From Streptomyces akebiae (GTDB taxonomy: Bacteria; Actinomycetota; Actinomycetes; Streptomycetales; Streptomycetaceae), in NCBI RefSeq assembly GCF_019599145.1, contig NZ_CP080647.1, positions 9,486,001 to 9,550,000 on the forward strand: a stretch of 64,000 nt of DNA. The letters run 5' to 3'. The notes below the pieces were generated by a model. That model worked only from the letters and a program-made list of their open reading frames with translations. It made no database searches and was not told where the DNA came from. Made by a program: the position numbers and the translations under genes. Positions within the stretch are counted from its first letter, which is position 1. The number at the start of each line of letters is the position of its first letter. Positions 16,935 to 45,219 of the stretch are shown piece after piece.

Positions 16935-16967
16935 CGCCCCGCACGCCGCCCGGCCCGACGCCCCTAG

Positions 16968-17753
16968 TGGGACTCCGTTAGGTCTGTCTCGATCTTGGCC
17001 TTTGGTGTGACCTGCGGGGCAGGGGTTGGTGGCTGGTGGTGCAGATGCCGGTCCAGCACCTCAGGACGTCCTGGAGGGCGTCGAGGACTTGGTAGGGGGT
17101 GAGGCCGGTCCGGGCACTTCTGGGGCCAGGCGCTGTTCGGTGAGGAAGGCGTGGGTGGCGGTCACGAGGGTGACGTGGTGGTGCCGGCCCGGCCGGGAAC
17201 GCCCTTCGAAGTGGTCCAGGCCCAGGCCGTGCTTGAGTTCGCGGTAGTCGTGCTCGATGCGCCAGCGGACCTTCGCCAGACGGACCAGGCCGGCGATCGG
17301 GGTGTCGTCCGGCAGGTTGGACAGCCAGTAGTCGGTCGGCGCTTCGGCGTCGGCAGGCCATTCGGTCAGCAGCCAGCAGTCTGGCAGGATCCCGTCCCAC
17401 CAGCCCTGTTCGGCCGAGGCCGCGGCTTTGATCGGCCGCTCGACAGCTTTGCCGGCCGGGCGCACGCGCACGGTGGCGTAGCGGGAGCGTAACTCCCCTC
17501 GCGAGCCGTGTCGCCAGGTGAGATGGGCGAATGCCTCCTGTCCGAGGGCGGCGGCCAGGGCTGCCACGGATGGTGCCGTCTGCCGGTAGCGGGGCTGGGG
17601 CCAGCAGCCGACCGGCCCGTTGCGGGCCGGGGCCACGGGCTTCGTCTCGAAAGAGTGCGCGCTCACGTCCGACCGGACGGCCAGGACGTAGGCAAGTCCG
17701 CGCTCGGACAGCGCCGCCCGCGGGTGAGCGCAGGAAGACCTAACGGAGCCCTA
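16968..17753 (-). mobile_element. Internally deleted IS701-family element (786 bp) with 4-bp CTAG duplication
   Basis: Both ends are present: TGGGACTCCGTTAGGTCT at 16968 and the complement of TAGGGCTCCGTTAGGTCT ending at 17753. CTAG lies on each side. Compared with the full copy at 42717-44154, about 650 bases are missing. The junction reads TCTTCCTG joined to CGCTCACC, removing the transposase start and its first catalytic region. The remaining sequence differs from the full copy at only a few positions that I noticed, so the copies are close relatives. It should be non-autonomous. Confidence 0.85.
17061..17730 (-). pseudogene. C-terminal part of IS701-family transposase
   Basis: The frame matches residues from about AHLRAALSERGLAYVLAV to the end (PPTKSSTPSRTS) of the intact 430-residue transposase at 42769-44061. 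The N-terminal half, including the first catalytic aspartate (WVIDDVSVPKDG), is deleted. It retains YWLSNLPDDTPI and RWRIEHDYRELKHGLGLDHF, which holds the catalytic glutamate. It cannot encode an active transposase. Confidence 0.85.
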
Positions 17754-17757
17754 CTAG

Positions 17758-18222
17758 CCGCTCCAATATCGGGTCGTTCAGACGCTCCTGGGTGAGCCGG
17801 GATACAGTGAAGGCGGGCGCGATGGCGTTGACCCGTACTCCGTCGGCCCCGAGGGCGAGGCTCTGCAGATCACCGCATCGAGGTTCACCGAGCGCTGGCG
17901 CTCCCAGGCGTCGTCGTCGAAGGCGTTGACGCCGCTGGGCTCGTACGTGCCGGCGTTGGCGAAGTTGACGTCCAGGTGGCCGAAGCGTCGGACGACTGCC
18001 GCCACCGCGCCGTCGAGCGCGGTGGCGTCCGTGATGTCGGCTTCGATCACCTCCACGCGCTTGGTGTCAAAGCCCGCCACGGTCTCGTGCAGCGGCTCCC
18101 GACGGCGGCCGAGGACCGCCACCGCACGCTCCCTCTTCGGGGAACGCGCGTGCGGTCGCCCGGCCGATGCCGGTGCCGGATCCCATGACCAGGATGACCT
18201 GGCCTTGGTAGGGGTAGGTGGT
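17758..18222 (-). pseudogene. Short-chain dehydrogenase remnant (frameshifted, internally deleted)
   Basis: Read on the minus strand, a Rossmann start (QGQVILVMGSGTGIGRATA) is followed by a frameshift near 18133-18140. The SDR frame then continues through VAVLGRRREPLHETV, NFANAGTYEPSG and RQRSVNLDAV. About 17875 it jumps to LQSLALGADGVRVNAIAPAF and ends RLTQERLNDPILERL against the IS copy. The catalytic YxxxK segment is missing. It lies directly downstream of the isomerase gene and was probably the third gene of that operon. No start codon is obvious. Confidence 0.75.
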
Positions 18223-18230
18223 TCAGGCGA

Positions 18231-19244
18231 TCACGCCTGCAGCGACTCCTGGAGGGCCGCGGCGGCGGCCTTGAGTACTTCGGCTGCCACGGCGACACCC
18301 TCGACGGGGCCGAGTTCGGTGTCCTCGTGCTCGATGTTGACCATCATGTCCGGGTCGACCTCGTGCAGGGCGCGTAGGAATTCGGTCCAGTAGGCGACGT
18401 CATGGCCCTTGCCGAGGGCGACGAAGTCCCACGCGGATGCCTTGGGCCACTCGTTGGCCCACTCGTCGCCGCCGAGGTTGGTGCGAGGCTCCTCGGGCGA
18501 CAGACGGCGGAAGCTGTTGTCGAGCACGCCGTTGAGTGCTGCGTGTTCGGGGTTGATGCGGACGTCCTTGGCGGCGGCGTGGAAGACGAGTTCGCCGAGG
18601 TGGCGGACGACCGCGACGGGGTCCATCTGCTGCCAGAACAGGTGCGAGGCGTCCAGTTCGACGCCCACGTGGGTCGCGCCGGTGAGGTCGATGAGCTTGT
18701 GCACGTCGGCGGAGTTGAACACGACGTTCTGCGGGTGCAGTTCGAGGGCGACCTTGACGTCGTGGTCACGGGCGAGCCGGTCGGTCTCGCGCCAGAAGTC
18801 GGCGACGATCTTCCACTGGTGGTCCAGCACGTCCAGGGCCGCGGAGTTCCATGCGTTGACGATCCAGTTCGGGCGGGTGGCGCCGGGCTCGCCGCCGGGC
18901 AGACCCGACATGGTCACGAGGCGGTGCTGTCCGAGCCGTTCGGCCAGGCGGATGGAGCGGCGGATGTCCTCGGCGTGCTTTTCACCGATGACCGGGTTCG
19001 GGTGGAGTGGGTTGCCGTTGGCGTTCAGGCCGGCGATGGAGACGCCGGTGCCCTCGAAGAGACCGAGGAAGTCGTCCCGGGCGGTGTCACTGACGAGGAT
19101 GTCGTCGAACTTCGGTACATGCACGGCGGGCAGGAAGCCACCGGTGTTGATCTCTATGCCCGTCAGGCCCAGGTCGGCGATGACTTTGATCGCCTCCGGA
19201 AGCGGCCGGTCGTGCAGGATCGCGTTGTACAGTCCCAGCTTCAT
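18231..19244 (-). CDS. Sugar phosphate isomerase/epimerase (TIM barrel, AP-endonuclease-2 fold)
   Basis: A 337-residue TIM-barrel protein of the xylose isomerase-like group. Likely metal ligands are visible in VALELHPQN (Glu), GVELDASHL (Asp/His), VFHAAAKDV (His) and VNIEHEDTE (Glu). Such enzymes isomerise, epimerise or dehydrate keto-sugars and keto-inositols. Its partner upstream is a Gfo/Idh/MocA dehydrogenase, an oxidise-then-isomerise pairing. It is not a recognisable IolE or IolH, but it could supply the inosose dehydratase step otherwise missing here. ATG 19244 follows GAGGAAC. It is probably co-transcribed from the operator-controlled promoter near 20711-20762. Confidence 0.82.
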   Translation of the reverse strand: MKLGLYNAILHDRPLPEAIKVIADLGLTGIEINTGGFLPAVHVPKFDDILVSDTARDDFLGLFEGTGVSIAGLNANGNPLHPNPVIGEKHAEDIRRSIRLAERLGQHRLVTMSGLPGGEPGATRPNWIVNAWNSAALDVLDHQWKIVADFWRETDRLARDHDVKVALELHPQNVVFNSADVHKLIDLTGATHVGVELDASHLFWQQMDPVAVVRHLGELVFHAAAKDVRINPEHAALNGVLDNSFRRLSPEEPRTNLGGDEWANEWPKASAWDFVALGKGHDVAYWTEFLRALHEVDPDMMVNIEHEDTELGPVEGVAVAAEVLKAAAAALQESLQA

Positions 19245-19426
19245 TTCGTAGTTCCTCGGTCCTTCTCGATGATGACGGTGGTGCCGCTGACGAGGGCGGA
19301 GGAGCTCGTGCGAGCTCCCGCGTATGCAGGGCTGTGCCTGGCGTATACGGCACGAGTGGTGGGCAGCCCTGCAGTGGCGGTTCTCCTGCCGGAGAGCTGA
19401 ACGGAAGGAGGCAAGCCGAGCCGACC

Positions 19427-20608
19427 TCACTGGACGGTGACGGCCTGTCCGCCGGCGTCGGCGGAGGCGACGATCGCATCGATGACGCGCAGGTTGTGCA
19501 GCCCGTCGGCAAGGGTGGGGCAGGACGGCAGCCCGTTCAGACCTGCGATCTGCTCCAGGAAGGCCCGGGCCTGCCAGACGAAGAACTCGTGCTGGCCGTG
19601 ACCCACGCTGGGAAAGTCCATGGGCAGACCACCGGCGATGTAGGGGTGGCCGGGGCCGACCACGATGCGCCGGTAGCCGTCCACAGGGGCGGAGGCCGCC
19701 GAGTCCACGATGGTGAACTCTGCGGGACGCGACAGTTCGAAGGTGGCCGCGCCGCCCTTCGTGAACACCTCGAAGCCGAGGGAGTTGGCCAGACCGCGGG
19801 CGATGCGCGAGACGGAGAAGGTGCCGACGGCGCCGGAGGCGAAGGTCGCGGTGAAGGTGGCTATGTCGTCGTTCTCGACGAGCTCGCGTTCCTGGCTCAC
19901 CTGTACGTCGGCCGAGTGGCCCACCGCGGTGCCCAGTGGCAGAGGTCGCTCGTGCACCTGGGTGGATAGCACGGCGCCCTGAACGCTCTGCACCGGACCG
20001 CAGAAGTACTCGCCGAGATCGATGAGGTGGCTGCCGATGTCGGACAGTGCCCCGGAGCCGGGTCCGCCCCGGTAACGCCAGCTCATCGGTGCCTCGGGGT
20101 TGTGGCCGTAGTCGCACCAGTAGTGTCCGTTGAAGTGTTGTACCGGCCCGAGCGTGCCCTCCCGCACCTGCTGCCGGATGGCGTTGATGGCGGGGGAGCG
20201 GCGGAAGGTAAAGCCTGTGGCCGCCACCAGGCCGGTTCCCTCGGCCGCCGCCACCATGGCCTGCGCGTCTGCCACACTCGGCGCGAGCGGCTTCTCGCAC
20301 AACACGTGCTTGCCCGCCGCCAGCAGGGCTTCGACGATCTCGCGGTGCAGGTGGTTGGCGACCACGACGCTGACCGCGTCGATGTCGTCGGCCTCGACGA
20401 TTGCCCGCCAGTCGGTCTCGGCCCGCTCGTAGCCGTAGCGGCGGGCGGCGTCCTGGGCGAAGGGCTCATGGGCGTCGGCGACAGCGACCAGGCGGATCCC
20501 GGGCAGCCCGTCGCCGTACAGCGTCGAGGCCTGTCTGTAGCCGTTGAGGTGGGCCCGGCCTGCCATTCCGGCCCCGATGACCGCCACCCCGATCGGTCGT
20601 GTGCTCAT
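19427..20608 (-). CDS. Gfo/Idh/MocA-family NAD(P)-dependent dehydrogenase
   Basis: A 393-residue protein. The N-terminal Rossmann domain has VAVIGAGMAGRAHLNGY and the family's CEKPLAPS motif near residue 105. The C-terminal substrate domain has WRYRGGPGSGALSDIGSHLIDL, with the Lys/Asp/His active-site set of the family (K in EKP, D and H in DIGSHLID). The family includes inositol 2-dehydrogenase (IolG), scyllo-inositol dehydrogenases and glucose-fructose oxidoreductase; I cannot assign the exact substrate. It is closely similar in layout to the 27467-28663 protein. It heads an operon with the TIM-barrel isomerase and sits about 100 bases downstream of a LacI-type operator. Confidence 0.88.
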   Translation of the reverse strand: MSTRPIGVAVIGAGMAGRAHLNGYRQASTLYGDGLPGIRLVAVADAHEPFAQDAARRYGYERAETDWRAIVEADDIDAVSVVVANHLHREIVEALLAAGKHVLCEKPLAPSVADAQAMVAAAEGTGLVAATGFTFRRSPAINAIRQQVREGTLGPVQHFNGHYWCDYGHNPEAPMSWRYRGGPGSGALSDIGSHLIDLGEYFCGPVQSVQGAVLSTQVHERPLPLGTAVGHSADVQVSQERELVENDDIATFTATFASGAVGTFSVSRIARGLANSLGFEVFTKGGAATFELSRPAEFTIVDSAASAPVDGYRRIVVGPGHPYIAGGLPMDFPSVGHGQHEFFVWQARAFLEQIAGLNGLPSCPTLADGLHNLRVIDAIVASADAGGQAVTVQ

Positions 20609-20710
20609 GATGGTTCCTCTCCGGCGCGCCGTTGTGCCGTGACTAGGGGGATGGGGACCGAGCGTCGTGGGCGCGGGTTTCACCTCGGGATCTACCAGCC
20701 AAGACCTCGT

Positions 20711-20762
20711 TTAAAGCGCTTTAAGCACTGGTACTATCGGCGGCGTTACGGGCGTATGTCAA
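20711..20762 (-). promoter_or_regulatory. Promoter with LacI-type operator (site A)
   Basis: Minus strand: TTGACA (20762-20757), an 18-base spacer, GATAGT (20738-20733), then 7 bases, then the palindrome TTAAAGCGCTTTAA (20724-20711) at or just after the expected transcription start. The same arrangement occurs at 40553-40604. It would drive the Gfo/Idh-isomerase operon. Binding at +1 implies repression. Confidence 0.75.
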
Positions 20763-20789
20763 GCGGTGCCGTAAATCCACGGGAGACCG

Positions 20790-21475
20790 CGTGGGCGACT
20801 TTGGCCCGGCTGCCCCCGCGGGCCTGGACGGCGCGATACCGCGTCCCCCGATCGGAGGACGTCACCGTGTGCGTCCACCGTCCTGCCCCAGCCGCCGGCG
20901 CTGTGGCCGGCCCGTCGTTTCGAGGGCTGCAGGATCACCGGTGCCAACTCGACGTCGTGTGCGGTGCTGGACGGCGACGGTGTCGACCGGGCCGTCGACG
21001 CCCTGGTGGGCCTCGGTAATCGTGCGGTCGTCACGGCAGTTGGGGCGAGGTTGTCATCGCCGTCGACCGTCGCCGCGGATACCGGAGCGCCATGCGCCGC
21101 CGCGGTCTCGTCTCGCTGATCGGGATCCGCCATGGTGCCACTGAGGAATCCGGCAGCGGGGCCGGGGCGGCATCCCGTCGGAGGACGGCGCTCTGTCGGC
21201 CGCCGTCGTGACGCCCCATGACCGGAGTGCCCTGGCCTCGCTGACTGCCTTCCGGCGGGCGGAGGAGAGGTTCCCGGCGCCGGTCCGTCGCGGGCTGCGG
21301 CGGCGCCCTTGTCCCCGCTGTGCTGCTTCATCTGACCGCGGTCGGCCAGAATGCCGAGGAGCAGGCCCCGTCAGGCCGTCATCGCCGTGGTCGTACACCT
21401 TGATCGGGGTGGTATCGCGTCCCGCGAGACATCTTTGCCTCCTCCCTCCTCCTGCGTGGAACCACATCGCAGCCG
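20790..21475 (+). pseudogene. Decayed LacI-family regulator
   Basis: Fragments in shifting frames line up, in order, with the intact LacI at 40643-41674: RSEDVTVCV (cf. RLEDVAARV), DGDGVDRAVDALVGLGNRAV (cf. DDDGVGQIVDHLVGLGHRAI), VIAVDRRRGYRSAMRRRGL (cf. VIATDRRRGYRTAMRRHGL), AAVVTPHDRSALASLTAFRR (cf. TAVVAFNDQCAIGVLAALAR), LHLTAVGQNAEEQA, and RQAVIAVVVHLDRGGIASRE. Several frameshifts and a shortened N-terminal part make it non-functional. Its upstream region still matches that of the intact gene, including the operator. Confidence 0.8.
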
Positions 21476-21607
21476 CGCTGATCGGGCGAACCGCTTGGTG
21501 CGTTCCGGCCACCGCCGGCCGCTGTCCGCGTGGGCGCCACATGTGTGCCCTATGCAGCCTTTTGCGGTCGGTGGTGGCGCAGTGCGCATTCTTCCGCGAA
21601 AAGGCCC

Positions 21608-21662
21608 TTGACACGTTTCGGAAACACAAGCATGCTCTGGCCACCACTTAAAGCGATTTAAA
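21608..21662 (+). promoter_or_regulatory. Promoter with LacI-type operator (site B)
   Basis: TTGACA (21608-21613) is followed 33 bases later by CTTAAAGCGATTTAAA (21647-21662), the same palindrome class as sites A, C and D. The -10 is poor (CATGCT at 21631). It lies 260 bases upstream of the first sugar-binding protein gene and points towards it. GTTTC-G-GAAAC (21615-21625) is an extra short inverted repeat in the spacer. Confidence 0.6.
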
Positions 21663-21921
21663 AGATCACGAATACGAACCCGCACTCACCAATCCGTCCG
21701 GCGTTGCCGTGATCGCCGCAGCACCCTCCTGGCGAGCTCTTCCGTCGCTCGCCCATGCCTGTAAGCCCCATCACGCGAATACCCGGTACTGCGGACGTGC
21801 CCGGTCTTCCCCGCGCAATCGCGCGCCCCGGTTCGTACGCGTCACCGTCGCACCACCACCCCGAGACATGCCTGGCCTCGCTCACACGCGCCTCGGCATC
21901 ACTCAAAGGAGCACCCCGCAC

Positions 21922-23010
21922 ATGGATCACACCCAGTCCCGGCGACTGCTCGGTCGCCGTCCTGCCCGAAGAGCTCTGACCGCGGTGAGCCTGCTCGCCG
22001 TCATGGCGGTCGCGGCGACCGGATGCGCCAGCGGAAAGGCCTCGGGCGGCGATGGCGACCAGTCGTCCGCGCCTGCCGAGGGCGGATCGACGTCCGCCGC
22101 GAAGAACGGCAAGAACGCCATCTACGTCATCGGCGGCAAGCCCGACGACCCGTTCTGGTCCGCGGTCAAGCGGGGCGGCGAAGACGCGGCGAAGCTCGTG
22201 AAGTCCGGCGGCGGTTCTGTGACATTCCTCGGCCCCAAGACGTACGACAACCTCGGCCCGGACGCCGCCAAGCTGACGCTCACCGCGCTGTCGCAGAACC
22301 CGTCGGCGATCGTCGTACCGGACTGGGTGCCCGAGAACCAGGACGACGCGATCAAGCAGGCCGTGAAGCAGGGCGTGCCCGTCTTCATCTACAACGCGGG
22401 CGGTGTCGACGCGGCCGAGAAGACCGGGTCGCTCAAGTACATCGGATCGGACGACTACGAGGCCGGCAAGGCCGGTGGCGCCAAGTTCGCCGAAGAGGGC
22501 GCGAAGAACATCCTGTGCGTCAACACCGTGCCCGGCGCGGCGAATTCGGAGGCCCGCTGCGACGGCATCGCCGACGGTGCCAAGACCGAGGGGGCCAAGT
22601 CCAAGCAACTGCCCCTGCCCTCCTCCAACTTCGGCAACCCCTCCGCGGTGACCCAGGCCATCAAGGGCGCCCTGCTGAAGGACGACACCATTGACGCCCT
22701 CGTGACGATCGGCGTCCAGGACGCGGACAGCGCGGCCGCCGCGATCGACCAGGCGAGCGCGGCCGACAAGGTGAAGCTGGGCACCTTCGACCTCTCGGAC
22801 AGCCAGCTCAACCGGATCAAGGCCGGCAAGCAGCTGTTCGCCATCGACCAGCAGCCTTACCTACAGGGCTTCTACGCGGTGTCGATAGCCAACCAGTACC
22901 TGTCCTACGGCGTGATCCCGCCGCAGAACCCGCTGCTGACCGGCCCGCTCCTGGTCACCAAGGACAACGTCGCCGAGGCGATCGCGGGCACGAAGGCCGG
23001 CGTCCGCTAG
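21922..23010 (+). CDS. Sugar ABC transporter substrate-binding lipoprotein (CUT2, RbsB-like)
   Basis: A 362-residue protein with a basic N-terminus, a hydrophobic core and a lipobox ending VAATGC, so it is a lipoprotein. The periplasmic-binding-protein type 1 fold is shown by YVIGGKPDDPFWSAVKRGGE, VPVFIYNAGG, GSDDYEAGKAGG, VTIGVQDADSA and FAIDQQPYLQGFYAV. These are the hinge and sugar-contact positions of ribose/inositol binders. It is followed by a cognate permease and ATPase. AAAGGAG precedes the ATG. It captures a sugar or cyclitol outside the membrane; inositol or a related polyol is inferred from context only. Confidence 0.9.
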   Translation: MDHTQSRRLLGRRPARRALTAVSLLAVMAVAATGCASGKASGGDGDQSSAPAEGGSTSAAKNGKNAIYVIGGKPDDPFWSAVKRGGEDAAKLVKSGGGSVTFLGPKTYDNLGPDAAKLTLTALSQNPSAIVVPDWVPENQDDAIKQAVKQGVPVFIYNAGGVDAAEKTGSLKYIGSDDYEAGKAGGAKFAEEGAKNILCVNTVPGAANSEARCDGIADGAKTEGAKSKQLPLPSSNFGNPSAVTQAIKGALLKDDTIDALVTIGVQDADSAAAAIDQASAADKVKLGTFDLSDSQLNRIKAGKQLFAIDQQPYLQGFYAVSIANQYLSYGVIPPQNPLLTGPLLVTKDNVAEAIAGTKAGVR

Positions 23011-23177: not shown

Positions 23178-24242
23178 ATGACAACCTCCCTCCCGAAGAC
23201 GACGGCCGGCCCGGAGACCGCCGTCATACCGGCGAAGCAATCCGAGAGCCGGCTGGGGCAGCTGCGCCATCGCCCCGAGGCTGGAGCGCTCATCGGAACA
23301 CTGAGTGTCTTCGTCTTCTTCGCGATCTTCGGCGGTGAGAAGTTCCTCGCCCAGGCGGGGGCGGCGAGCTGGCTGAACATCGCCGCGGAACTCGGCATCA
23401 TCGCCATCCCCGTCGGGCTGCTGATGATCGCCGGTGAACTCGACGTGTCCGTGGGCTCGGTGCTCGCGGGCAGCTCGATGACGCTGGCCATCGTGTCCGG
23501 GCACTGGGGCGCGCCGATGATCGTCGGCATCGTGCTCGCACTCGCGCTGGGTCTGCTCACCGGCCTGCTCAACGGGATTCTCGTCACCAGGAGCAACGTC
23601 CCCTCTCTGGTCGTCACCCTGGCCACCCTGTTCGCGCTCTCCGGGCTCACCCTCGGCCTGTCCCGGTTCACGACCGGTACCACCAGCGTCGCCATCGCCC
23701 CCGACCCCACCTCCAAGGCGATCTTCGGACAACTGATCGGCGGCCAGTTCGAGGTCGCGATCTTCTGGTGGATCGTCGTGGCCGTCGCCGTCACCGTGCT
23801 GCTGCAGGCCATGCCGTACGGCAACTGGATCTTCGCCATCGGCGGTGACAAGGAGAGCGCCCGCGCCAACGGCATCCCCGTCGCCCGCGTGAAGATCTCC
23901 CTGTACATGGCCAGCGGGTTCTGCGCCGCCCTCGTCGGCGTGATCCAGACCATCCTCTACAACGGCGCCCAGGTCGCCAACGGCCAGTCCTTCGTCTTCA
24001 ACTCCATCATCGCCGTGGTCATCGGCGGCGTACTGCTCCAGGGCGGCTACGGCTCGGTCGTCGGCGTCGTACTGGGAACCCTGACCTTCGCCATCGTCAA
24101 CCAGGGCATCTACTTCACCGGCTGGAACTCCGACTGGGCCGCCCTGATCCTCGGCGTCCTCATCCTTGCGGCGGTGCTGATGAACAACACGTTCCGTCGG
24201 CTCGCCCTGTCCCACAAGCCCCGCTCCGCGAAGAAGGCCTGA
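23178..24242 (+). CDS. Sugar ABC transporter permease (CUT2)
   Basis: A 354-residue protein with about nine to ten membrane segments (for example LIGTLSVFVFFAIFG, IVGIVLALALGLLTGLL, WWIVVAVAVTVLLQ). The BPD_transp_2 signature is present: GELDVSVGSVLA, and YGNWIFAIGGDKESARANGI followed by VIGGVLLQGGYGSVVG. It forms the membrane channel with the preceding binding protein and the following ATPase, whose ATG begins 2 bases after its stop. It is very similar in organisation to the permease at 38262-39338. Confidence 0.92.
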   Translation: MTTSLPKTTAGPETAVIPAKQSESRLGQLRHRPEAGALIGTLSVFVFFAIFGGEKFLAQAGAASWLNIAAELGIIAIPVGLLMIAGELDVSVGSVLAGSSMTLAIVSGHWGAPMIVGIVLALALGLLTGLLNGILVTRSNVPSLVVTLATLFALSGLTLGLSRFTTGTTSVAIAPDPTSKAIFGQLIGGQFEVAIFWWIVVAVAVTVLLQAMPYGNWIFAIGGDKESARANGIPVARVKISLYMASGFCAALVGVIQTILYNGAQVANGQSFVFNSIIAVVIGGVLLQGGYGSVVGVVLGTLTFAIVNQGIYFTGWNSDWAALILGVLILAAVLMNNTFRRLALSHKPRSAKKA

Positions 24243-24244
24243 CC

Positions 24245-25036
24245 ATGACCACACCCCTTCTGCGCCTGGAAGGCGTCAGCAAGTCCTTCCTCGGCACCCA
24301 CGCGCTGCAGGACATCTCCCTGGAGGTGGACGCCGGAAAGGTGCTGTGCCTGCTGGGCGACAACGGTGCCGGCAAGTCGACCCTCATCAAGATCCTCTCC
24401 GGGTTCCACAAGCCGACCACCGGCACGATCGAGGTCAACGGCGTCCCTGCCGTCTTCGACAGTCCGCGTGACGCCAGTGCCCAGGGCATCGCCACCGTGC
24501 ACCAGTTCGGCGGTACGTTCCCGTTGATGGGCGTCGGCCGCTGCTTCTTCGTCGGGGCCGAACCCACCAAGGGCTGGGGCCCGTTCAAGTTGTTCGACAA
24601 GAAGCTGGCGGGCGAGATCGCCGTCCGCGAGATGCAGTCCCTCGGCATCACCCGCGTCACCGACGGCGCCCGCCTGGTCGGCAGCCTCTCCGGCGGCGAG
24701 CGCCAGGCCCTGGCCATCGCCCGCGCCGTCTACTTCGGCGCCAACGTCCTCATCCTCGACGAGCCCACCGCCGCCCTCGGTGTCAAGGAGGCCGCCCACG
24801 TCCTGCGCATCATCATGCAGGCCCGCGCCAAGGGCGTCGCCGTCATCCTCGTCACCCACAACGTGCGCCACGCCATGATGGTCGGCGACCACTTCGCCGT
24901 CCTCATCCGCGGCCAGAAGGCCGACGACTTCCGCAAGGGCGAACGGACCCGCGAGGAGATCACCGACCTCATGGCCGGCGGCGAGGCCATGGCCGACCTC
25001 GAGGCCGAACTCGCGGAGCTTCAGGCCGGCGCCTGA
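24245..25036 (+). CDS. Sugar ABC transporter ATP-binding protein, single-domain
   Basis: A 263-residue ATPase with one nucleotide-binding domain: Walker [12 protein letters not shown], signature LSGGERQALAIA, Walker [13 protein letters not shown], switch histidine in VTHNVRHAM. Typical CUT2 ATPases (RbsA, MglA) are about 500 residues with two domains. This is the FrcA-like single-domain form, so a homodimer would be needed. It completes the binding protein-permease-ATPase operon and is followed by a strong hairpin. Confidence 0.92.
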   Translation: MTTPLLRLEGVSKSFLGTHALQDISLEVDAGKVLCLLGDNGAGKSTLIKILSGFHKPTTGTIEVNGVPAVFDSPRDASAQGIATVHQFGGTFPLMGVGRCFFVGAEPTKGWGPFKLFDKKLAGEIAVREMQSLGITRVTDGARLVGSLSGGERQALAIARAVYFGANVLILDEPTAALGVKEAAHVLRIIMQARAKGVAVILVTHNVRHAMMVGDHFAVLIRGQKADDFRKGERTREEITDLMAGGEAMADLEAELAELQAGA

Positions 25037-25149
25037 GCCCAGCGCTCCGGGCCCGACCACCCGCTTCGGCCACCGACTTCGCGTCCCTCCCCCGCGAGCC
25101 GGAGGCCGAGATACGCGGCGCGACCGGAAACGGTACGCGCTGCCCCCAG

Positions 25150-25187
25150 CCCGTACCGGGTGGAGCTCACTCTCCGCCCGGTACGGG
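25150..25187 (+). terminator. Terminator hairpin after the first ABC operon
   Basis: CCCGTACCGGGTGGAG (25150-25165) and CTCCGCCCGGTACGGG (25172-25187) form a 16-bp stem with one G-T pair and a 6-base loop. It lies 114 bases after the ATPase stop. Confidence 0.8.
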
Positions 25188-25307
25188 CGCGACTGCGGTC
25201 GACCCGGCGGGTCTGGGCACGGCAGGTGACGTCGTGCATGGGCAGACGGCCCGTGAGTAGGGATGCAGGGCGCCTGGCGAGTGCCGGGCGACCTGGCATG
25301 AGCCATC

Positions 25308-26201: not shown

Positions 26202-26292
26202 TCGTGTGACGTCGATGGGTGCGCAGTGCACGAGGCTCCCGTGCCGTCGGGGGAGGTGTTCGAAGTCTCAACCCACAGGTATAGAAGCCGCG

Positions 26293-27330: not shown

Positions 27331-27466
27331 GGCGACGCCCTCGACGAACACACGTTGTGGGCCCCGCGCGCACCTGTCGGCGGGCGGGGCCTCGCAAGGG
27401 GTTCTGTGAGGCGGCTGGCGACGCCGCGTGCAGATTCGGGCTCTACGAGCTCCGGCTCTTCGGTGG

Positions 27467-30150: not shown

Positions 30151-30190
30151 GGCCACCTCCTAGCGGTCGATGTGGGGGGACGGGATCAAC

Positions 30191-31687: not shown

Positions 31688-31716
31688 GGTGCGGGTTTCC
31701 TTTGCGGGGACGGGAC

Positions 31717-35362: not shown

Positions 35363-35366
35363 GGCG

Positions 35367-37347: not shown

Positions 37348-38253
37348 TCACGCAGCCCCGTCCTTCGAGGTGGCCACGGGTGCGGTGAGGTCGTCCTCCT
37401 CGGGGAGTTCCTCGACGTCGACGCCGCGTACTTGGGCCAGTTCGTGTTTGAGGGCGGCGAGTTCGGTGCCGCCGGCCATGTGGTTGGTGAGTTCTTCGAG
37501 GCTGACCTGGTCGCGGGCGGCACTGAGTTCGAGGGTGCCCAGGCGCAGGACGCTGAAGTGGTCGCCGACCATGTAGGCGTGGTGGGGGTTGTGGGTGATG
37601 AAGATGACGCCCAGACCGCGGTCGCGGGCGGCGGCGATGTACTTCAGCACCACACCCGACTGCTTGACGCCGAGGGCGGCGGTGGGCTCGTCGAGGATGA
37701 GGACGCGGGCGCCGAAGTAGACGGCGCGGGCGATGGCCACGCACTGGCGCTGGCCGCCGGAGAGGGTACCGATGGGCTGGTCGAGGTCGTCCAGGACGAT
37801 GCCCATGTTGCGCAGTTCCTCGTCGGCGGTCTTCTTCATCCTGTCGATGTCGAGGCGGCGGACGGGCCAGGGGCCGCGGGTGAATTCGGAGCCGAGGAAG
37901 AAGTTGCGCCACACCGGCATCAGGGGCACGGTCGCCAGGTCCTGGTAGACGGTGGCGATACCGGCGTCCAGCGCCTCACGGGGGGTGGAGAAGCGCACCG
38001 GCTCGCCGTCGACGAGGACATCGCCCTCGGTGTGCTGGTGCAGGCCGGAGATGATTTTGATGAGGGTGGACTTGCCGGCGCCGTTGTCGCCCAGGACACA
38101 GGTGACGCGGCCGGGGTGGACGCTGAGGTTCACGCTGTGCAGGGCGCGGACATTGCCGTAGGCCTTGCCGGTGCCGCGCAGTTCTACGACGGGGGTGTCG
38201 TTCTGAGATTCGGTGTCCGTGACGATAGCCGTGTTGGTGTTGGTGTTGGCCAT
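37348..38253 (-). CDS. Sugar ABC transporter ATP-binding protein, single-domain
   Basis: A 301-residue ATPase with Walker [15 protein letters not shown], signature [12 protein letters not shown], Walker [13 protein letters not shown] and switch ITHNPHHAY. Like the 24245-25036 ATPase it has one nucleotide-binding domain instead of the two usual in CUT2 systems. An unusual Asn/Thr-rich N-terminal tail ([13 protein letters not shown]) and an acidic C-terminal tail ([10 protein letters not shown]) extend it. ATG 38253 lies 8 bases after the permease stop; an earlier start at 38292 would overlap the permease. Confidence 0.92.
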
Positions 38254-38261
38254 GGGGTGGT

Positions 38262-39338
38262 TCACCTCCGGGTCGCCTGGCTGCGGACCCACAGATTGAC
38301 GAGGGCGGCGATCAGGAGCATCACGCCGAGGAAGGCCTTGAACCAGTCGGGGTTCCAGTTGGCGTAGACGATGCCCTGGTTGACCATGCCGAAGATGAAG
38401 GCGCCGATGACCGGGCCGATCGCCGAGCCGTAGCCGCCGGTCAGCAGACAGCCGCCGATCACCGCGGCGATGATGTACAGGAACTCGTTGCCCACGCCCT
38501 CACCGGACTGCACCGTGTTGAACGAGAACAGCAGGTGCATGCCGACGAACCAGGCCCCGGCGCCGACACCCATGAACAGCGCGACCTTCGTGAAGTTGAC
38601 GGGGACACCCACCGCGCGGGCGGAGTCCTTGTTGCCGCCGACGGCGAAGATCCAGTTGCCGAACTTGGTGCGCAGCAGCAGCCAGGTGGCGATCGCGGCG
38701 AAGACGAGCCAGTAGAAGATCGTGATTTTGAAGTCGACGCCGCCGATCGACACCTCGGACGCGAAGATGCTCTTGGCCTGGTCGAAGCCGTCCATGTCGG
38801 CGATCGAGTCACTGGCGACATTGCCGGTGAAGATCTTCGTGACAGCCAGGTTGGAGCCCTGGAGGATCAGGAACGAGCCCAGCGTGACGAGGAAGCTCGG
38901 CAGGCCGGTCTTGATGAGCAGCCAGCCGTTGAACGCGCCGACGGCGAGGGACACGAGGAGCGCGACGATCACGCCGGTCCACACGTTCACCGTCAGCTGG
39001 AAGGTGAGGATTGCCGCTGTCAGGGCGGAGGTGGTGACCGCGACGCCGGCGGACAGGTCGAACTCGCCGCCGATCATCAGCAGGGCCACCGGCAGGGCCA
39101 TGATGCCCATCACCGAGGCCTGGTAGAGCACCGTCGCCAGCGAACTGGCCTCGCGGAACGAGGGGGCCACGGAGAAGAAGAACGCGTAGACGCCGATCGC
39201 GGCTATGAGCGCGCCGACCTCGGGGCGGGCCAGCAGCCTGCGCCCCAGCGAACGCTGTACGGTGCGGCCGTCCTTGTGGGCGGCCGGCGGAGCCGGCGAC
39301 GAGGGTGAGCTCGCCGCCGGTGCCGTTGCTTGGGTCAT
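38262..39338 (-). CDS. Sugar ABC transporter permease (CUT2)
   Basis: A 358-residue protein with about ten membrane helices and the CUT2 signature [12 protein letters not shown], then [22 protein letters not shown] and [20 protein letters not shown] Pro/Ala/Ser-rich cytoplasmic N-terminus (about 25 residues) precedes the first helix. It starts 7 bases after the binding-protein stop, so the operon is tight. In the iol cluster the likely substrate is inositol or a stereoisomer; this is contextual. Confidence 0.92.
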
Positions 39339-39345
39339 GATCAGA

Positions 39346-40365
39346 TCACCGGGTGCCCTTCGAGGCGAACTTGGCGATCGTGTCGACGTTGTCCTTGTCG
39401 ACGAAGGCCGGGCCTGTCAGCACCGGCTCCTCGCCACCGCCGCTGTAGTTTCCGTTGTTCTTGTAGAGCCAGAGCGAGTCCACGGCCAGGTAGCCCTGCA
39501 GGTAGGGCTGCTGATCGACGGCGAACTCGATGTCGCCCGCCTTGATGGCGTCCGTGAGCTCCTTGTTCAGGTCGAACGTGGCGACCTTCGCCTTGCTGCC
39601 CGCGTCCGAGATCGACTCCACCGCCGTCAGCGCGAACGGGGCGCCGAGGGTGACGACCTGGTCGATCGAGGAGTCCTGCTTGAGCTTGGCCGAGATGGTC
39701 GACTTGGTCGCGGGCATGTCGTTGCCGTTGACGTAGAGGTTCTCGGTCTTGCCCTTGAAGGTCTTCTTCACGCCGGCGCAGCGCTGCTCCAGGCCGATGT
39801 GCCCCTGGACCTGGACGACGCAGAGCGCGTGCTTGGCGCCGGTCTCGTTGAGCTTGTTGCCGAAGGCCTGGCCGGAGACGGCCTCGTCCTGGCCGAAGAA
39901 GGAGAGCAGCCCCTGCTCCTTCCAGACGTCCATGCCGGAGTTGAAGCCGACGACGGGGATGCCGGCCTTCTGTGCCTTGGCGATGGCGTCCTTGAGGGCG
40001 TCGGGTTTGGCGAGGGTGACGGCGATGCCGTCGACCTTCTGGTCGATCGCGTTCTGGATCAGCGTCGCCTGGCCGCTGGCGCTCTCGTCGTTGGAGTAGA
40101 TCAGCTCGACGTTGTCCTTGGCGGCGGCGGCCTGGGCGCCCTTGCGGATGATGTCCCAGAACGTGTCGCCGGACGGCGCGTGAGTGACCATCGCGACCTT
40201 CATACGGGGCGTGTCGGCCTTGCCGGCCGCGGCGTCCGCCCCGCCCTCCTCGGCCTCCTTGCCGCCGGAGCTGCTGGAACAGCCCGCGAGGACCAGGGTG
40301 GCCGCGGCGGCCACGGCCACGACGGAGGCTGTTCTGCGAGAGCGGGGAAGGGAGGTTCGGTTCAT
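39346..40365 (-). CDS. Sugar ABC transporter substrate-binding lipoprotein (CUT2, inositol candidate)
   Basis: A 339-residue lipoprotein: signal peptide with AVAAAATLVLAGC lipobox. The type 1 binding fold is shown by MVTHAPSGDTFWDIIRKGAQ, VDGIAVTLAKPDAL, VVGFNSGMDVW, VVTLGAPFALTAVES and FAVDQQPYLQGYLAVD. The residues after THAPSGDTFW and around FNSGMD contact sugar in RbsB/IbpA-type proteins. First gene of the operon with permease, ATPase and iolH, under the site D promoter, and divergent from the intact LacI gene. Confidence 0.92.
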   Translation of the reverse strand: MNRTSLPRSRRTASVVAVAAAATLVLAGCSSSSGGKEAEEGGADAAAGKADTPRMKVAMVTHAPSGDTFWDIIRKGAQAAAAKDNVELIYSNDESASGQATLIQNAIDQKVDGIAVTLAKPDALKDAIAKAQKAGIPVVGFNSGMDVWKEQGLLSFFGQDEAVSGQAFGNKLNETGAKHALCVVQVQGHIGLEQRCAGVKKTFKGKTENLYVNGNDMPATKSTISAKLKQDSSIDQVVTLGAPFALTAVESISDAGSKAKVATFDLNKELTDAIKAGDIEFAVDQQPYLQGYLAVDSLWLYKNNGNYSGGGEEPVLTGPAFVDKDNVDTIAKFASKGTR

Positions 40366-40552: not shown

Positions 40553-40604
40553 TTTAAAACGCTTTAAGTTCTGGTACTATCGGATTGTTTCGCGAGCGTG
40601 TCAA
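40553..40604 (-). promoter_or_regulatory. Promoter with LacI-type operator (site D)
   Basis: Minus strand: TTGACA (40604-40599), a 17-base spacer, GATAGT (40581-40576), 7 bases, then CTTAAAGCGTTTTAAA (40568-40553). The arrangement and the 13-base block CTGGTACTATCGG (plus strand) are shared with site A. It drives the binding protein-permease-ATPase-iolH operon. TACTAT on the plus strand could also serve the divergent lacI gene, giving autoregulation. Confidence 0.75.
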
Positions 40605-40642
40605 GGGTGTTGTGCCAGCAGATTTCCGCAGGGGAGGCGCAA

Positions 40643-41674
40643 GTGGGCGACGGTGATCCCGTACGTCACCGGAATGGCGCGAACAAGCGTCCCCGGCTGG
40701 AGGACGTGGCCGCGCGGGTGGGCCTGTCCACCGCGTCGGTGTCCCTCGTGCTGCGTGGGGTGGCCGGTCCCAGTGAGCGGACGCGGCAGCGTGTCCTCAG
40801 GGCCGCCGCGGACCTCGGCTATCAGGTGGACCGTACGGCCAGCGTGCTCGCGAGCCGCCGCAGCCGTCTGCTGGGCGTCATGATCGACATCTACAGCCCG
40901 TTCCACGCCGAGTTGGTCGACCATCTGCATGTGGCGGCCGAGGAGGTCGGCTATGACCTGGTGCTCAGCACCCTGACGCGCACCCGCGACGAGCACACGG
41001 CCGTCGAGACGCTGCTCGCCTACCGCAGCGAGGCCCTGATCCTGCTCGGCCCGACCGCCCCCGCCGCCACCCTCGCCGCGCTGGACCGCAAGTCTCCGGT
41101 CATCGCCGTCGGCCGCCGGATCTCCGACGCGGCCCTGGACGTCGTGCGCACCGCTGACGACGACGGGGTCGGGCAGATCGTCGACCATCTCGTGGGGCTC
41201 GGCCATCGTGCGATCACCTACGTCGACGGCGGCAAGGGCGTGATCGCCACCGATCGGCGCCGGGGTTACCGCACCGCCATGCGCCGCCACGGCCTGGACG
41301 AACACATCAGCGTCCTGCGCGGCGACCACACCGAAGCGGCCGGCGAGCGCGCCGCGGGCCAGCTACTCGGAGCCGGCGATCTTCCCACCGCCGTCGTCGC
41401 CTTCAACGACCAGTGCGCCATCGGCGTCCTGGCCGCCCTGGCCCGCGCCGGGGTCGAGATCCCTGGCCGGGTGTCCGTGGTCGGCTACGACGACGACACC
41501 CACTCCCGGCTGAGCTGCTTCAATCTGACCACGGTCAGCCAGGGGGCCGAGGCGCAGGCGCGGCATGCGGTGACCGCGGCCGTCGAGCGCCTCGACCAGG
41601 ACCGGACCGAACCCCGCGAGGTCGTCCTCACCCCGCGTCTCGTCCTCCGGGGGACGACGGCGAAGCCCGTCTGA
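40643..41674 (+). CDS. LacI-family regulator, probable repressor of the iol regulon
   Basis: A 343-residue LacI/GalR regulator. The helix-turn-helix with hinge is near residues 10-65 (RLEDVAARVGLSTASVSLVL, then SVLASRRSRLLGVMI). The sensor domain has ALILLGPTAPAATL, VVAFNDQCAIGVLAAL and VSVVGYDDDTHSRL. GTG 40643 was chosen because GGGGAGG lies 5 bases before it. The palindromes with a central CG at four island promoters (sites A-D) are of the type LacI proteins bind. As the only intact LacI here it is the natural candidate for all four. The effector is probably inositol or a catabolite (inference). Confidence 0.9.
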   Translation: MGDGDPVRHRNGANKRPRLEDVAARVGLSTASVSLVLRGVAGPSERTRQRVLRAAADLGYQVDRTASVLASRRSRLLGVMIDIYSPFHAELVDHLHVAAEEVGYDLVLSTLTRTRDEHTAVETLLAYRSEALILLGPTAPAATLAALDRKSPVIAVGRRISDAALDVVRTADDDGVGQIVDHLVGLGHRAITYVDGGKGVIATDRRRGYRTAMRRHGLDEHISVLRGDHTEAAGERAAGQLLGAGDLPTAVVAFNDQCAIGVLAALARAGVEIPGRVSVVGYDDDTHSRLSCFNLTTVSQGAEAQARHAVTAAVERLDQDRTEPREVVLTPRLVLRGTTAKPV

Positions 41675-41925
41675 CGTATACGTCGTGCCAGGGCGTGCCC
41701 GAGCGGTTTGATGCAGATCAGCGGTTGGATCTTGTCGGCCGCTGTGGACACGGTTCGTGCCTGCGCCGCTGTAGGGCTGACCCGCCTCCCGGTTGATCCC
41801 GTCGCCAACAGCGGGGAAGCCAGCCAGGACTGGTGAGTTTTGCGGAGGCTTGTCAGCTTGTCTCTTACCCTCTGAGGCTGTCGCGCTCGATAATGCTTTC
41901 GGGTCGCCTGGTCGTTTTCCCAACG
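41675..41925. other. Intergenic stretch between lacI and transposase relics
   Basis: About 250 bases with no recognisable gene. Several frames are open but encode nothing I know. It probably contains the distal end of the damaged insertion sequence described next; no terminal repeat was identified. Confidence 0.4.
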
Positions 41926-42716
41926 TCATAGTGGGTCGCGGGGCGGCGATTCTTGCAGCCAAGTGGTCTTCCTGGTCCGGGTGTTGAGGGGTTCGGTGCA
42001 TCGGCCGGGCAGTGTGCGGGTGCGGGCGGAGGTTCCGAATGCCCGGCGGACGCGGGCCGGGGTGAGTCGTGCGGGCTCGGTCGGCCTCTCCCAGGGGCGG
42101 CGGAGATCCGCCGCGGCTTCGCGGGTGAGCCGGAGCTGGGTGTGGGCGGCGATCACGAGCCGTTCAGAGGTCTCCGGCCTCGGGGGTGCGGATCTTCGGG
42201 CGGGTCCAGCCCCGGGTCTGCTTCATCAGCCGGAAGGTGTGTTCCAGGTCGAGGCGCCGCAGGAACGCCTGCCAGCGCACGTCGACGTCCTCGCCGCTCA
42301 GGCCGGTGGCCGACGACCGCAGCCAGAGCGGCAGCGGGTCTGCGCCGCCGGGAAGGCGGTTGACCTGGAGGCGGATCAGCGTGCCTTCGATGACGGGGAG
42401 TTCGCATGTGTGGTCGATCCACGCGGAGCGGGTGGTCAGGCGGGGGTGGATGCGGTCCCAGGCCATCGCGCGGGCGGTTCCGTACCGGTCGGTGACCTGC
42501 ACCGTGGCCGCGTCCGGATCACCCCTGGTCTCCGGCTTGGCGAAGCGGAACTCCTTGCCGTGCTTCGGCGGCCGCCCGCCCTGCGGCGGGGAGACCCAGG
42601 GCACCGGGACGGGCTTGCGCATCACCCGGTCCGTACGCATCCGGCCCAGGACCTCCACCGGCAGCCCGGCCAGGAGGTGGGCCATGCGCGGGGCGTCGTA
42701 GCCGGCGTCGAGCCAG
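41926..42716 (-). pseudogene. Transposase pseudogene truncated by the IS701-family element
   Basis: Read on the minus strand, YWLDAGYDAPRMAHLLAGLP, VLGRMRTDRVMRKPVPVPW, RWQAFLRRLDLEHTFRLMKQ and GWTRPKIRTPEA match a common Streptomyces DDE transposase family (I recall the NF041680 type). Near 42160 the frame shifts, and the C-terminus continues as VIAAHTQLRLTREAAADLRR and ARLTPARVRRAF. The N-terminal half is missing where the IS701-family element begins at 42717; it is not found on the far side of that element either. It is dead by truncation and frameshift. Confidence 0.75.
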
Positions 42717-44154
42717 TAGGGCTCCGTTTGGTCTTCCTGTCCGGCCCGTTCGAGAGCACGTTGGTTGTGTGGATGCACATGGAGTGAACCGTGTTCGGGC
42801 GAAGTTGGCGTTGTTCGTGGCGGATGTGTTCGCGTCGGTGCCGCGGAAGGACCAGCGGGCGAAGGGCGACTGCCATCTGCGGGGACTGATGCTGGAGAGC
42901 CGCCGCAAGTCGATCCAGGCTATGGTCTCGCGGCTGCCGGACGGCGACGAGCAGAACCTGCAGCAGTTCGTGAACCAGTCGACGTGGGATCCGGTGCCGG
43001 TGCCGGTGCCGGTGCAGCGGCGGATCTGCGAACGCATGCTGCCGTTGATCGATCCAGTGGCGTGGGTGATCGACGATGTGTCGGTGCCCAAGGACGGCCG
43101 GATGTCGGCCGGGGTGGCTCCGCAGTACTGCGGAGCCCTGGGAAAGCGGGCCAACTGCCAGGTCGCGGTCAGCGTCCACGCTGCGACCGATACCGTTTCC
43201 TGCCCGCTGCAATGGCGGCTGTTCCTGCCCGGGGAGTGGGCGTCGGACGCCGTTCGCCGGGCCCTCACGCGCATACCGGCAGACGTCACACACCGCGAGA
43301 AGCGGCGCCTTGCCCTGGACATGCTCGACACGCTCGCCGGCTGGGGCATGAGGCCGCCGGTCGTAGCGGCCGACGCCGCCTACGGCACCAGCGCTCACCT
43401 GCGGGCGGCGCTGTCCGAGCGCGGACTTGCCTACGTCCTGGCCGTCCGGTCGGACGTGAGCGCGCACTCTTTCGAGACGAAGCCCGTGGCCCCGGCCCGC
43501 AACGGGCCGGTCGGCTGCTGGCCCCAGCCCCGCTACCGGCAGACGGCACCATCCGTGGCAGCCCTGGCCGCCGCCCTCGGACAGGAGGCATTCGCCCATC
43601 TCACCTGGCGACACGGCTCGCGAGGGGAGTTACGCTCCCGCTACGCCACCGTGCGCGTGCGCCCGGCCGGCAAAGCTGTCGAGCGGCCGATCAAAGCCGC
43701 GGCCTCGGCCGAACAGGGCTGGTGGGACGGGATCCTGCCAGACTGCTGGCTGCTGACCGAATGGCCTGCCGACGCCGAAGCGCCGACCGACTACTGGCTG
43801 TCCAACCTGCCGGACGACACCCCGATCGCCGGCCTGGTCCGTCTGGCGAAGGTCCGCTGGCGCATCGAGCACGACTACCGCGAACTCAAGCACGGCCTGG
43901 GCCTGGACCACTTCGAAGGGCGTTCCCGGCCGGGCCGGCACCACCACGTCACCCTCGTGACCGCCACCCACGCCTTCCTCACCGAACAGCGCCTGGCCCC
44001 AGAAGTGCCCGGACCGGTCTCACCCCCGACCAAGTCCTCGACGCCCTCCAGGACGTCCTGAGGTGCTGGACCGGCATCTGCACCACCAGCCACCAACCCC
44101 TGCCCCGCGGGTCACACCAAAGGCCAAGATCGAGACAGACCTAACGGAGTCCCA
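42717..44154 (+). mobile_element. Full-length IS701-family insertion sequence (1438 bp)
   Basis: The left end TAGGGCTCCGTTTGGTCT (42717) and the complement of TGGGACTCCGTTAGGTCT (ending 44154) are imperfect inverted repeats matching at 15 of 18 positions. The right flank is CTAG; the left flank is CCAG, so there is no simple 4-bp duplication around this copy. It carries one intact transposase gene. It is the inverted counterpart of the 16968-17753 element, with which it shares about 740 nearly identical bases. Confidence 0.85.
42769..44061 (+). CDS. IS701-family DDE transposase (intact)
   Basis: A 430-residue transposase: N-terminal region with LPDGDEQNLQQFVNQSTWD, first catalytic Asp in WVIDDVSVPKDG, second in VVAADAAYGTS, and the YREL-type glutamate motif in RWRIEHDYRELKHGLGLDHF. 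Length and motifs fit IS701. The start is a GTG at 42769; an in-frame GTG (GVNRVRAK) a few codons later is an alternative. A short VPVPVPV run comes from a GGTGCC repeat. The frame is open to the stop, so it could mobilise itself and, through matching outer ends, the island. Confidence 0.9.
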   Translation: MDAHGVNRVRAKLALFVADVFASVPRKDQRAKGDCHLRGLMLESRRKSIQAMVSRLPDGDEQNLQQFVNQSTWDPVPVPVPVQRRICERMLPLIDPVAWVIDDVSVPKDGRMSAGVAPQYCGALGKRANCQVAVSVHAATDTVSCPLQWRLFLPGEWASDAVRRALTRIPADVTHREKRRLALDMLDTLAGWGMRPPVVAADAAYGTSAHLRAALSERGLAYVLAVRSDVSAHSFETKPVAPARNGPVGCWPQPRYRQTAPSVAALAAALGQEAFAHLTWRHGSRGELRSRYATVRVRPAGKAVERPIKAAASAEQGWWDGILPDCWLLTEWPADAEAPTDYWLSNLPDDTPIAGLVRLAKVRWRIEHDYRELKHGLGLDHFEGRSRPGRHHHVTLVTATHAFLTEQRLAPEVPGPVSPPTKSSTPSRTS

Positions 44155-45219
44155 CTAGGGCCGCGCGTCGAGGTCCGGCGCCACATCCGTCCCCCCTTCC
44201 GTCAGGGGCCGTGCCGTCGCCATCCCGGCGAGCAGGCCCGCGCCCGCCGTCACCGTCGTGAAGCTCAGCGCGTTGCCCACGGCGGCGATCGCGGCCACCG
44301 CGGTCAGGGCCGCGCCCGCGGTGAGGACCACCGGCGTGGAGCGCGGGGCCCGCCACAGGACGTACAGGACCCAGCCGAACACCGCGGCGAGCAGGCCCAC
44401 ACCGATGAGCCCCTGCTCGGCCGCCAGCTGCAGGGGTGCCGAGTGGGGCCGGTCGTCGGCCGACAGCGACCGGGCGACCGTCGGGGCGAGCTCCCCGAAG
44501 CGGCCCGGTCCCGCGCCGAACAGCGGATCGTCGTGGACGAGGCCGAGCGCGTCGTGCCACAGCAGGATCCGGTGCGGGGTGAGCTGCCCCTCCAGCGAGT
44601 CGGTCAGCCCGGCCGGGAGGGCCTCCTCGGCCACGGCCCAGACCGTCGCCGTCACCAGGCCCGTGGCGAGGGCGAGTCCCGCGAGACCCGGGCCCCGGCG
44701 CATCAGGGCCGCCGCGAGCGAGCACAGCAGTACGCCGGCGCACGCGGCGACGCCGGTGGTCGAGCCGAGCACCGCCGCGGTCACCGCGATCGCGCCGGTC
44801 AGCAGCCGCAGGGCCAGCCGCACGCCGGGCGAACGGGCCGCCCACGCGGCACAGCAGGCGGCACCGGCGGCCAGGACCAGCAGCGCGGCGGTCGCACCGG
44901 TGTGCCCCAGCGGTGAGACCAGCGGCGAGCCCGTCATGGTGTGCGGGTCGGTGACCGCCAGACCGAGACCGGCCAGCGCTCCGGCGGACGGTGCCACCAC
45001 CGGCAGCAGGGCCCCGCAGATCCGGCCCGCCGCGTAACCGGCCGCCACCGCGAGCACCGCCAGCAGCACACCCTCCGGCCGGCCGCCCCGCGCCGCCGCC
45101 GTGATCAACGACCAGGCCGCGAACGCCCCGAGCATGAGCACGCCCGTGACATCGGAGACGTTCCGTCTCTCGTGCGAGGCCGACGCTCCGGCCGCGGACT
45201 CCGTCCCCGTGGACTCCAA
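44155..45219 (-). CDS. O-antigen ligase-like polytopic membrane protein
   Basis: A 354-residue protein with about nine or ten membrane helices (for example VLLAVLAVAAGYAAGRI, AALLVLAAGAACCAAW, LTGAIAVTAAVLGSTTG, AGAALTAVAAIAAVGN). Between late helices is the Wzy_C-like block HRILLWHDALGLVHDDPLFG with GAGPGRFGELAP and HSAPLQLAAEQGLIG, the pattern of O-antigen ligases/polymerases. The substrate is unknown and there are no polysaccharide genes nearby. Its stop TAG (44157-44155) is formed by the CTAG at the island's right edge, so it is the first backbone gene on this side. Confidence 0.8.
   Translation of the reverse strand: MESTGTESAAGASASHERRNVSDVTGVLMLGAFAAWSLITAAARGGRPEGVLLAVLAVAAGYAAGRICGALLPVVAPSAGALAGLGLAVTDPHTMTGSPLVSPLGHTGATAALLVLAAGAACCAAWAARSPGVRLALRLLTGAIAVTAAVLGSTTGVAACAGVLLCSLAAALMRRGPGLAGLALATGLVTATVWAVAEEALPAGLTDSLEGQLTPHRILLWHDALGLVHDDPLFGAGPGRFGELAPTVARSLSADDRPHSAPLQLAAEQGLIGVGLLAAVFGWVLYVLWRAPRSTPVVLTAGAALTAVAAIAAVGNALSFTTVTAGAGLLAGMATARPLTEGGTDVAPDLDARP

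Follow-up and report, generated by a model that had tools for sequence, protein, structure and literature searches.

In the chromosome of Streptomyces akebiae, a 27,187-bp block predicted to carry genes for inositol-type catabolism and uptake appears to have entered a CTAG site between two chromosomal genes by transposition, i.e., as one composite unit of the IS701 family (we place the probability of this reading at about 0.85). The block spans positions 16968-44154 of a 64,000-nucleotide stretch of DNA (positions 9,486,001 to 9,550,000 of contig NZ_CP080647.1, assembly GCF_019599145.1), here called the window, and has inverted copies of one IS701-family insertion sequence (IS) at its two ends. 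The host genome, denoted G000 in the comparisons below, comprises two contigs and 10.5 Mb, with the window located on contig 1. The observations behind this reading are the two IS copies with their ends, the identity of their outer tips, an empty site in relatives, the genes cut at the inner sides of the IS copies, and the mosaic cargo. The features at the borders of the block are as follows.

16341..16934, plus strand: left flanking chromosomal gene, 197 aa, without family match; adjoins the right flanking gene in relatives
16964..16967, no strand: outer CTAG, left, read from the sequence
16968..17753, minus strand: left IS701-family copy, 786 bp, internally deleted, both ends kept
17754..17757, no strand: CTAG on the inner side of the left IS copy, read from the sequence
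17758..18220, minus strand (bounds approximate): SDR oxidoreductase pseudogene, truncated by the left IS copy
41855..42716, minus strand: transposase gene of another family (NF041680, family match), truncated at the inner terminus of the right IS copy
42713..42716, no strand: CCAG on the inner side of the right IS copy, read from the sequence
42717..44154, plus strand: right IS701-family copy, 1438 bp, full length
42769-44061, plus strand: transposase gene of the right IS copy, 430 aa
44155..44158, no strand: outer CTAG, right, read from the sequence; gives the stop codon of the right flanking gene
44155..45219, minus strand: right flanking chromosomal gene, O-antigen-ligase-like, just under the Pfam cut-off

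An earlier, sequence-only reading of the window had proposed that an inverted IS701 pair with identical outermost 18 bases bounds the region. The pair is indeed found there, identical at 764 of 768 bases across the part that the two copies share, and the identity of the outer tips extends to 45 bp. The transposase of the right copy scores 384.7 bits against the NCBIfam IS701 cut-off of 150. Its D102, D202 and E367 are each present in 79 of 80 aligned relatives, and R363 and K374 are found around E367 with an A at the Y position, i.e., R-E-K without the Y (the DDE triad and the R-E-K motif were assigned by eye). Excerpts of PMC2266710 describe the same pattern for the IS701 family, where the Y of YREK is usually missing. 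The left copy has lost ~650 bp from its middle, such that transposase residues 207-430 are the sole coding remainder, without both catalytic aspartates. In a transposition event of the type proposed here, the transposase encoded by the right copy, which is intact, would use the outer terminus of each IS copy, the left copy would supply DNA ends only, and the whole unit would be cut out and pasted into a CTAG, leaving a 4-bp repeat behind. Among the best 40 of 325 first-look candidates scored in the 10.5-Mb genome, no near-identical third copy was found, the third-best match to the IS element being 72% identical over 375 bp. Because the sole near-identical copies found in the genome bracket the block, the IS pair most likely shares the history of the block.

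The flanking genes were joined into a query of 1019 bases, which matched 294 of 295 genomes, including the host's own. A single alignment runs unbroken across the junction in at least 86 of 294 other genomes (hand count), and the joined flanks are found as two close pieces in four more (G139, G109, G032 and G128). Genomes for which one flank half or none was listed are uninformative on adjacency; among the matches listed, the two halves are 27 kb apart only in G000 itself. The nearest flanks, those of G108, are 91-92% identical and have 14 bp between them. In G248 the flanks are ~55 bp apart, and G228 has neither the right flanking gene nor an insert at that position. The block is missing at this site from the relatives compared, and the flanking genes are adjacent there, in agreement with what the sequence-only reading had expected of the two genes. 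Inverted IS pairs can come from intramolecular transposition, and an IS-driven inversion or other rearrangement of native DNA could in this manner have left inverted copies around a resident segment. The adjacency of the two flanking genes in relatives shows that the segment is no resident one, which refutes this explanation and leaves it a very small probability.

Both outer flanks read CTAG, as had been noted from the sequence, including the overlap between the right-hand CTAG (44155-44158) and the TAG stop codon of the right flanking gene. CTAG is found on both sides of the left IS copy; at the right copy the outer side reads CTAG and the inner side CCAG. For the IS701 family, a target duplication of exactly four bases is stated in the excerpted text of PMC2266710. 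We surveyed the flanks at 104 loci of related IS copies, of which 50 were readable at both ends; some of these loci represent the same genome more than once and are non-independent. The 4-bp flanks are equal in 37 of these 50 copies and unequal in 13, and 28 of the 50 have CTAG on both sides, i.e., CTAG is the preferred target of this IS element. Equal outer CTAGs are therefore also expected from two independent insertions. The outer CTAG pair was at one stage a candidate proof of a single event and was dropped when the survey revealed this preference.

The target preference is relevant for an alternative in which the cargo arrived by homologous recombination or on some other integrating element, and IS copies inserted independently at its edges later. 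Separate events would yield equal outer CTAGs at a preferred target, and the left copy, flanked by CTAG on both sides, looks like a simple insertion. However, both edges of the insert coincide with IS tips (cf. the 14-bp gap in G108), no other near-identical copy was found in the 10.5 Mb among the candidates scored, and the genes on the inner sides are cut without their other parts being present outside. The unequal CCAG/CTAG flanks of the right copy also speak against a simple insertion, though one mutation could explain them as well. Taken together, we consider independent insertion improbable.

The cut genes themselves are informative. The SDR gene has lost its last part at the left IS copy and, in addition, carries an internal deletion; in G079 the gene is intact and situated beside an iolE-like gene. 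At the other end, all 11 of the 11 relatives examined have a match to the NF041680 transposase that ends 5-7 bp short of the right IS end; in nine of the 11, recognisable sequence of this family continues beyond the breakpoint (the exceptions are loci L229 and L235). The missing parts of both genes are not located on the outer sides of the IS copies, where native genes are found. Such cuts are the marks expected if the IS copies sat in other genes at a donor site and the unit then moved. A search of the host genome for the scar of such a donor, i.e., the missing SDR tail, gave, besides the block, only short matches at 71-82% identity, as for other SDR genes. Near the left end of contig 1 (43071-43663 and 47245-47852), NF041680-type transposase matches are 85% and 81% identical, respectively, to the fragment at the right IS copy.

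As judged from its gene content, the cargo is a mosaic of a transport/dehydrogenase module, IS110 debris, and a module that combines iolADBC with an ABC transporter. The genes between the two cut ends are listed below.

18231..19310, minus strand (end approximate): xylose-isomerase-like TIM barrel, IolE-like under the cut-off
19427..20626, minus strand (start approximate): Gfo/Idh dehydrogenase, IolG-like under the cut-off
20700..21670, plus strand (bounds approximate): LacI-family regulator, broken in several frames
21850..23010, plus strand (start approximate): sugar ABC substrate-binding protein, rhizopine-binding-like under the cut-off
23178..24242, plus strand: sugar ABC permease (family match)
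24245..25036, plus strand: sugar ABC ATPase (family match)
26560..27231, plus strand (bounds approximate): decayed IS110 transposase, between the modules
27232..27437, no strand: remnant of a home-locus border gene plus spacer, ~40 codons left
27467..28648, minus strand (start approximate): second Gfo/Idh dehydrogenase
28708..30156, minus strand: sugar porter MFS transporter (family match)
30191..31700, minus strand (start approximate): IolA, CoA-acylating methylmalonate-semialdehyde dehydrogenase, over the NCBIfam cut-off
31717..33585, minus strand: IolD, over the NCBIfam cut-off
33597..34427, minus strand (start approximate): IolB, over the NCBIfam cut-off
34490..35366, minus strand (start approximate): Cgl0159-like family protein, possibly a pathway aldolase
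35367..36335, minus strand: IolC, over the NCBIfam cut-off
36437..37294, minus strand: second xylose-isomerase-like (TIM-barrel) protein (family match)
37348..40365, minus strand: second sugar ABC transporter, i.e., ATPase, permease and binding protein (family match)
40598..41674, plus strand: intact LacI-family regulator (family match)

The left module thus comprises a TIM-barrel protein, a Gfo/Idh protein, an ABC transporter and the broken LacI gene, and the right module IolA, IolD, IolB and IolC, the Cgl0159-like, TIM-barrel and Gfo/Idh proteins, an ABC transporter, the MFS sugar porter and the intact LacI gene. In the ~1.5 kb between the modules (25040-26560), one open reading frame was tested (25160-25843) and gave no Pfam match. 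Three cargo genes are broken, namely one of the two LacI genes, the SDR gene and the IS110 transposase gene. The sequence-only reading had described the cargo as a complete regulon with transporters and its own repressor. IolA, IolB, IolC and IolD, the transporters and one intact LacI gene agree with this description, but the two Gfo/Idh and two TIM-barrel proteins all score well under the IolG and IolE cut-offs and the second LacI gene is broken, so that "complete", for what is a mosaic, is an overstatement. The host genome also holds two further IolD relatives (57-60% identity), and two such relatives are listed in seven of nine genomes examined, with one each in G139 and G062. Given these two other relatives in the genome, the block constitutes a third, accessory iol locus.

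Relatives of the cargo are found at other chromosomal positions. Because 162 of the 295 genomes were unscored in the cluster search, the counts of cluster-bearing genomes are lower bounds. At 1.51-1.52 Mb, the 11.3-Mb genome G108 carries a cluster with 90-93% identity to the right module, far from its own empty site at 10.08 Mb. The suggestion of the sequence-only reading that the cluster would be located away from this site in relatives holds for seven of the 11 best cluster-bearing relatives (G108, G062, G001, G122, G084, G125 and G110), which combine an unbroken empty site with a cluster elsewhere. In G007 flank and cluster are 2.9 Mb apart, in G063 and G033 they are found on different contigs, and G079 harbors the cluster and has no flank match. 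The clusters of G062 and G001 show 84-91% identity against 75% for the joined flanks, a difference that suggests horizontal spread of the cluster; the cluster of G063 is 85-89% identical. The MFS sugar porter (28708-30156) is part of the cluster in G001, G079 and G122, and not in G108, G062 and G063. The left module matches 16 of 295 genomes, including the host's own, at E <= 1e-100 (best two candidates per genome). Its closest relatives are found in G239, G033, G122 and G079, and in G033, G079 and G122 it adjoins the iol core.

A short segment between the modules points to the origin of the right half of the cargo. Positions 27232-27437 match the end of a gene (80%) and the adjoining spacer (74%) that border the G108 cluster. 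The same gene end, with or without the spacer, is found at the matching locus of G254, G228, G248 and the host genome at 73-76% identity. The stretches examined in G062, G063, G001, G033, G079 and G122 gave no matches to the remnant, or matches of 16-31 bases only. At this locus, referred to as the home locus, the border gene was read by eye as a FAD monooxygenase. The remnant of a home-locus gene within the cargo makes it likely that the right module came from a chromosome with this arrangement. The home locus of the host genome itself (~662.4-666.0 kb) holds no cluster; genes for siderophore-type ABC transport were recognized by eye in this cluster-free region (contig 1, 662400-665800; L130, L134). 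In G228 a cluster scar is found at 714400-714990 of contig 1 (L139), where short LacI and Gfo/Idh remnants, 90-98% identical, are joined. The G254 home locus (contig 1, 10025001-10030035; L131) has kept the LacI, binding-protein, isomerase and Gfo/Idh genes, without the ABC permease and ATPase and the iol core.

These data raise the question of whether the cargo originates from this very genome, i.e., a variant of composite transposition in which the genome's own left-arm home-locus cluster was turned into the cargo and moved to the right arm. The remnant of the home-locus neighbor gene in the right half of the cargo, the absence of a cluster at the host's own home locus, and a divergence of the cargo from G108 (90-93% identity) that is like that of the nearest flanks (91-92%) would all fit such a relocation. 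On the other hand, no match to the left module at E <= 1e-100 was found in G108, G228, G248 or G254 (best two candidates per genome), the relatives of this module in G108 are only 66-67% identical and the closest are those of G239, G033, G122 and G079. Furthermore, the best 40 of 325 candidates included no near-identical IS copy at any other place in the genome, and the home locus is variable, with other close relatives also being without all or part of the cluster. Relocation within the chromosome is therefore unlikely, if less so than the other alternatives considered here, and we favor import from another Streptomyces as the source of the cargo because neither the left module nor the IS element was otherwise found in the close relatives searched.

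In the sequence of events that we envisage, the cluster of iolADBC and ABC transporter genes would first have been captured from the home locus used by close relatives, and then fused, with IS110 debris in between, to another inositol-type module. Insertions of the IS701 element in the SDR gene and in the other transposase gene would next have bracketed the cargo, after which the unit jumped, most likely from another Streptomyces.

A number of points weigh against this reading. Taken alone, the equal outer CTAGs are weak evidence for one insertion event. The comparison included no same-species genome, so the exact pre-insertion site is deduced from more distant relatives, in which the spacer between the flanking genes is variable; among seven aligned relatives, CTAG is found near the stop codon of the right gene only in G248. 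A second genome with the same composite was not found in the 295 genomes (best two candidates each), where the nearest full-length IS copy elsewhere is 89% identical and shorter fragments are at most 93% identical. Similarly, neither IolA, IolB, IolC or IolD nor the binding protein was found beside transposase relatives at the best 80 of 583 loci, for which 3-21 kb per locus was covered with flanks of up to 10 kb. In a megablast search for the cluster on plasmids, no record matched 80% of the query at a single place, and the best one reached 21% at 76.8% identity. What supports the composite transposon originally proposed is the empty site, the location of the cluster elsewhere in relatives, the insert edges at the IS tips and the cut inner genes; the CTAG repeat is weak by itself.

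The arrangement is like that of Tn5 and Tn10 in having an IS pair around a cargo and a DDE transposase. In Tn5 and Tn10, one functional and one defective IS copy are found in inverted orientation. The IS elements that form these composites, IS50R and IS10R, belong to the related IS4 family, according to the excerpted text of PMC2266710. Unlike Tn5 and Tn10, which generate ~10-bp duplications and carry resistance genes, the block described here has IS701-family ends, a 4-bp CTAG-type target and a 27-kb catabolic cargo, and its defective copy is the result of an internal deletion. Within the genus, the enterocin cluster of a sponge-associated Streptomyces albus is reported in the abstracted text to resemble a giant composite transposon (PMC4018334; also mentioned in PMC7093587). 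As described there, it is likewise a large cluster between transposase genes, with identical genes around the acquisition site, although its cargo is biosynthetic rather than catabolic.

A catabolic cargo had been considered unusual, and it is uncommon, but precedents exist both for such cargo (PMC5141477, PMC8472584) and, with the enterocin cluster, for a giant composite-like unit in Streptomyces (PMC4018334), as far as the excerpts describe them. TnC5ppSal of Pseudomonas C5pp is a catabolic composite with inverted IS21 copies (PMC5141477), and metabolic-gene composites are described in Acinetobacter lwoffii (PMC8472584). Both resemble the present block in having catabolic or metabolic genes between IS copies, as outlined in these excerpts, with other IS families and other hosts; the A. 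lwoffii search addressed same-orientation pairs at most 15 kb apart, whereas here the copies are inverted and 27 kb apart (PMC8472584). Accessory iol genes are also known from the genomic island GEI4417/4436 of Salmonella (PMC6288124, PMC10783015), an iol operon at an att hot spot in Enterococcus faecalis (PMC4374294) and iol islands of Propionibacterium freudenreichii (PMC4437456). In these systems iol is accessory DNA, as here, and the excerpted texts do not describe an IS-bounded composite; nor was an iol composite transposon found in titles and abstract openings of open-licence papers. The block is therefore likely a genuine IS701 composite catabolic transposon of a kind already known, with its mobility and substrate being predictions from sequence.

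The movement of whole accessory catabolic clusters between and within Streptomyces chromosomes is seldom visible. At this locus the sequence itself reveals the boundaries, the empty site, a remnant of the source locus and a candidate vehicle, so that the transport of 27 kb of catabolic genes by an IS pair can be put to the test on a concrete example. The inner-side gene truncations, unequal IS flanks and home-locus remnants are footprints that can be looked for in other genomes. More tentatively, and as a generalization that we hold to be doubtful at present, an IS701 composite may pick up an inositol cluster at its home locus, fuse it to a module of another lineage and re-insert on the opposite arm, such that ordinary IS pairs would drive traffic of catabolic clusters from arm to arm and from species to species in Streptomyces. 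The block is one instance of how entire feeding pathways may be exchanged among soil bacteria.

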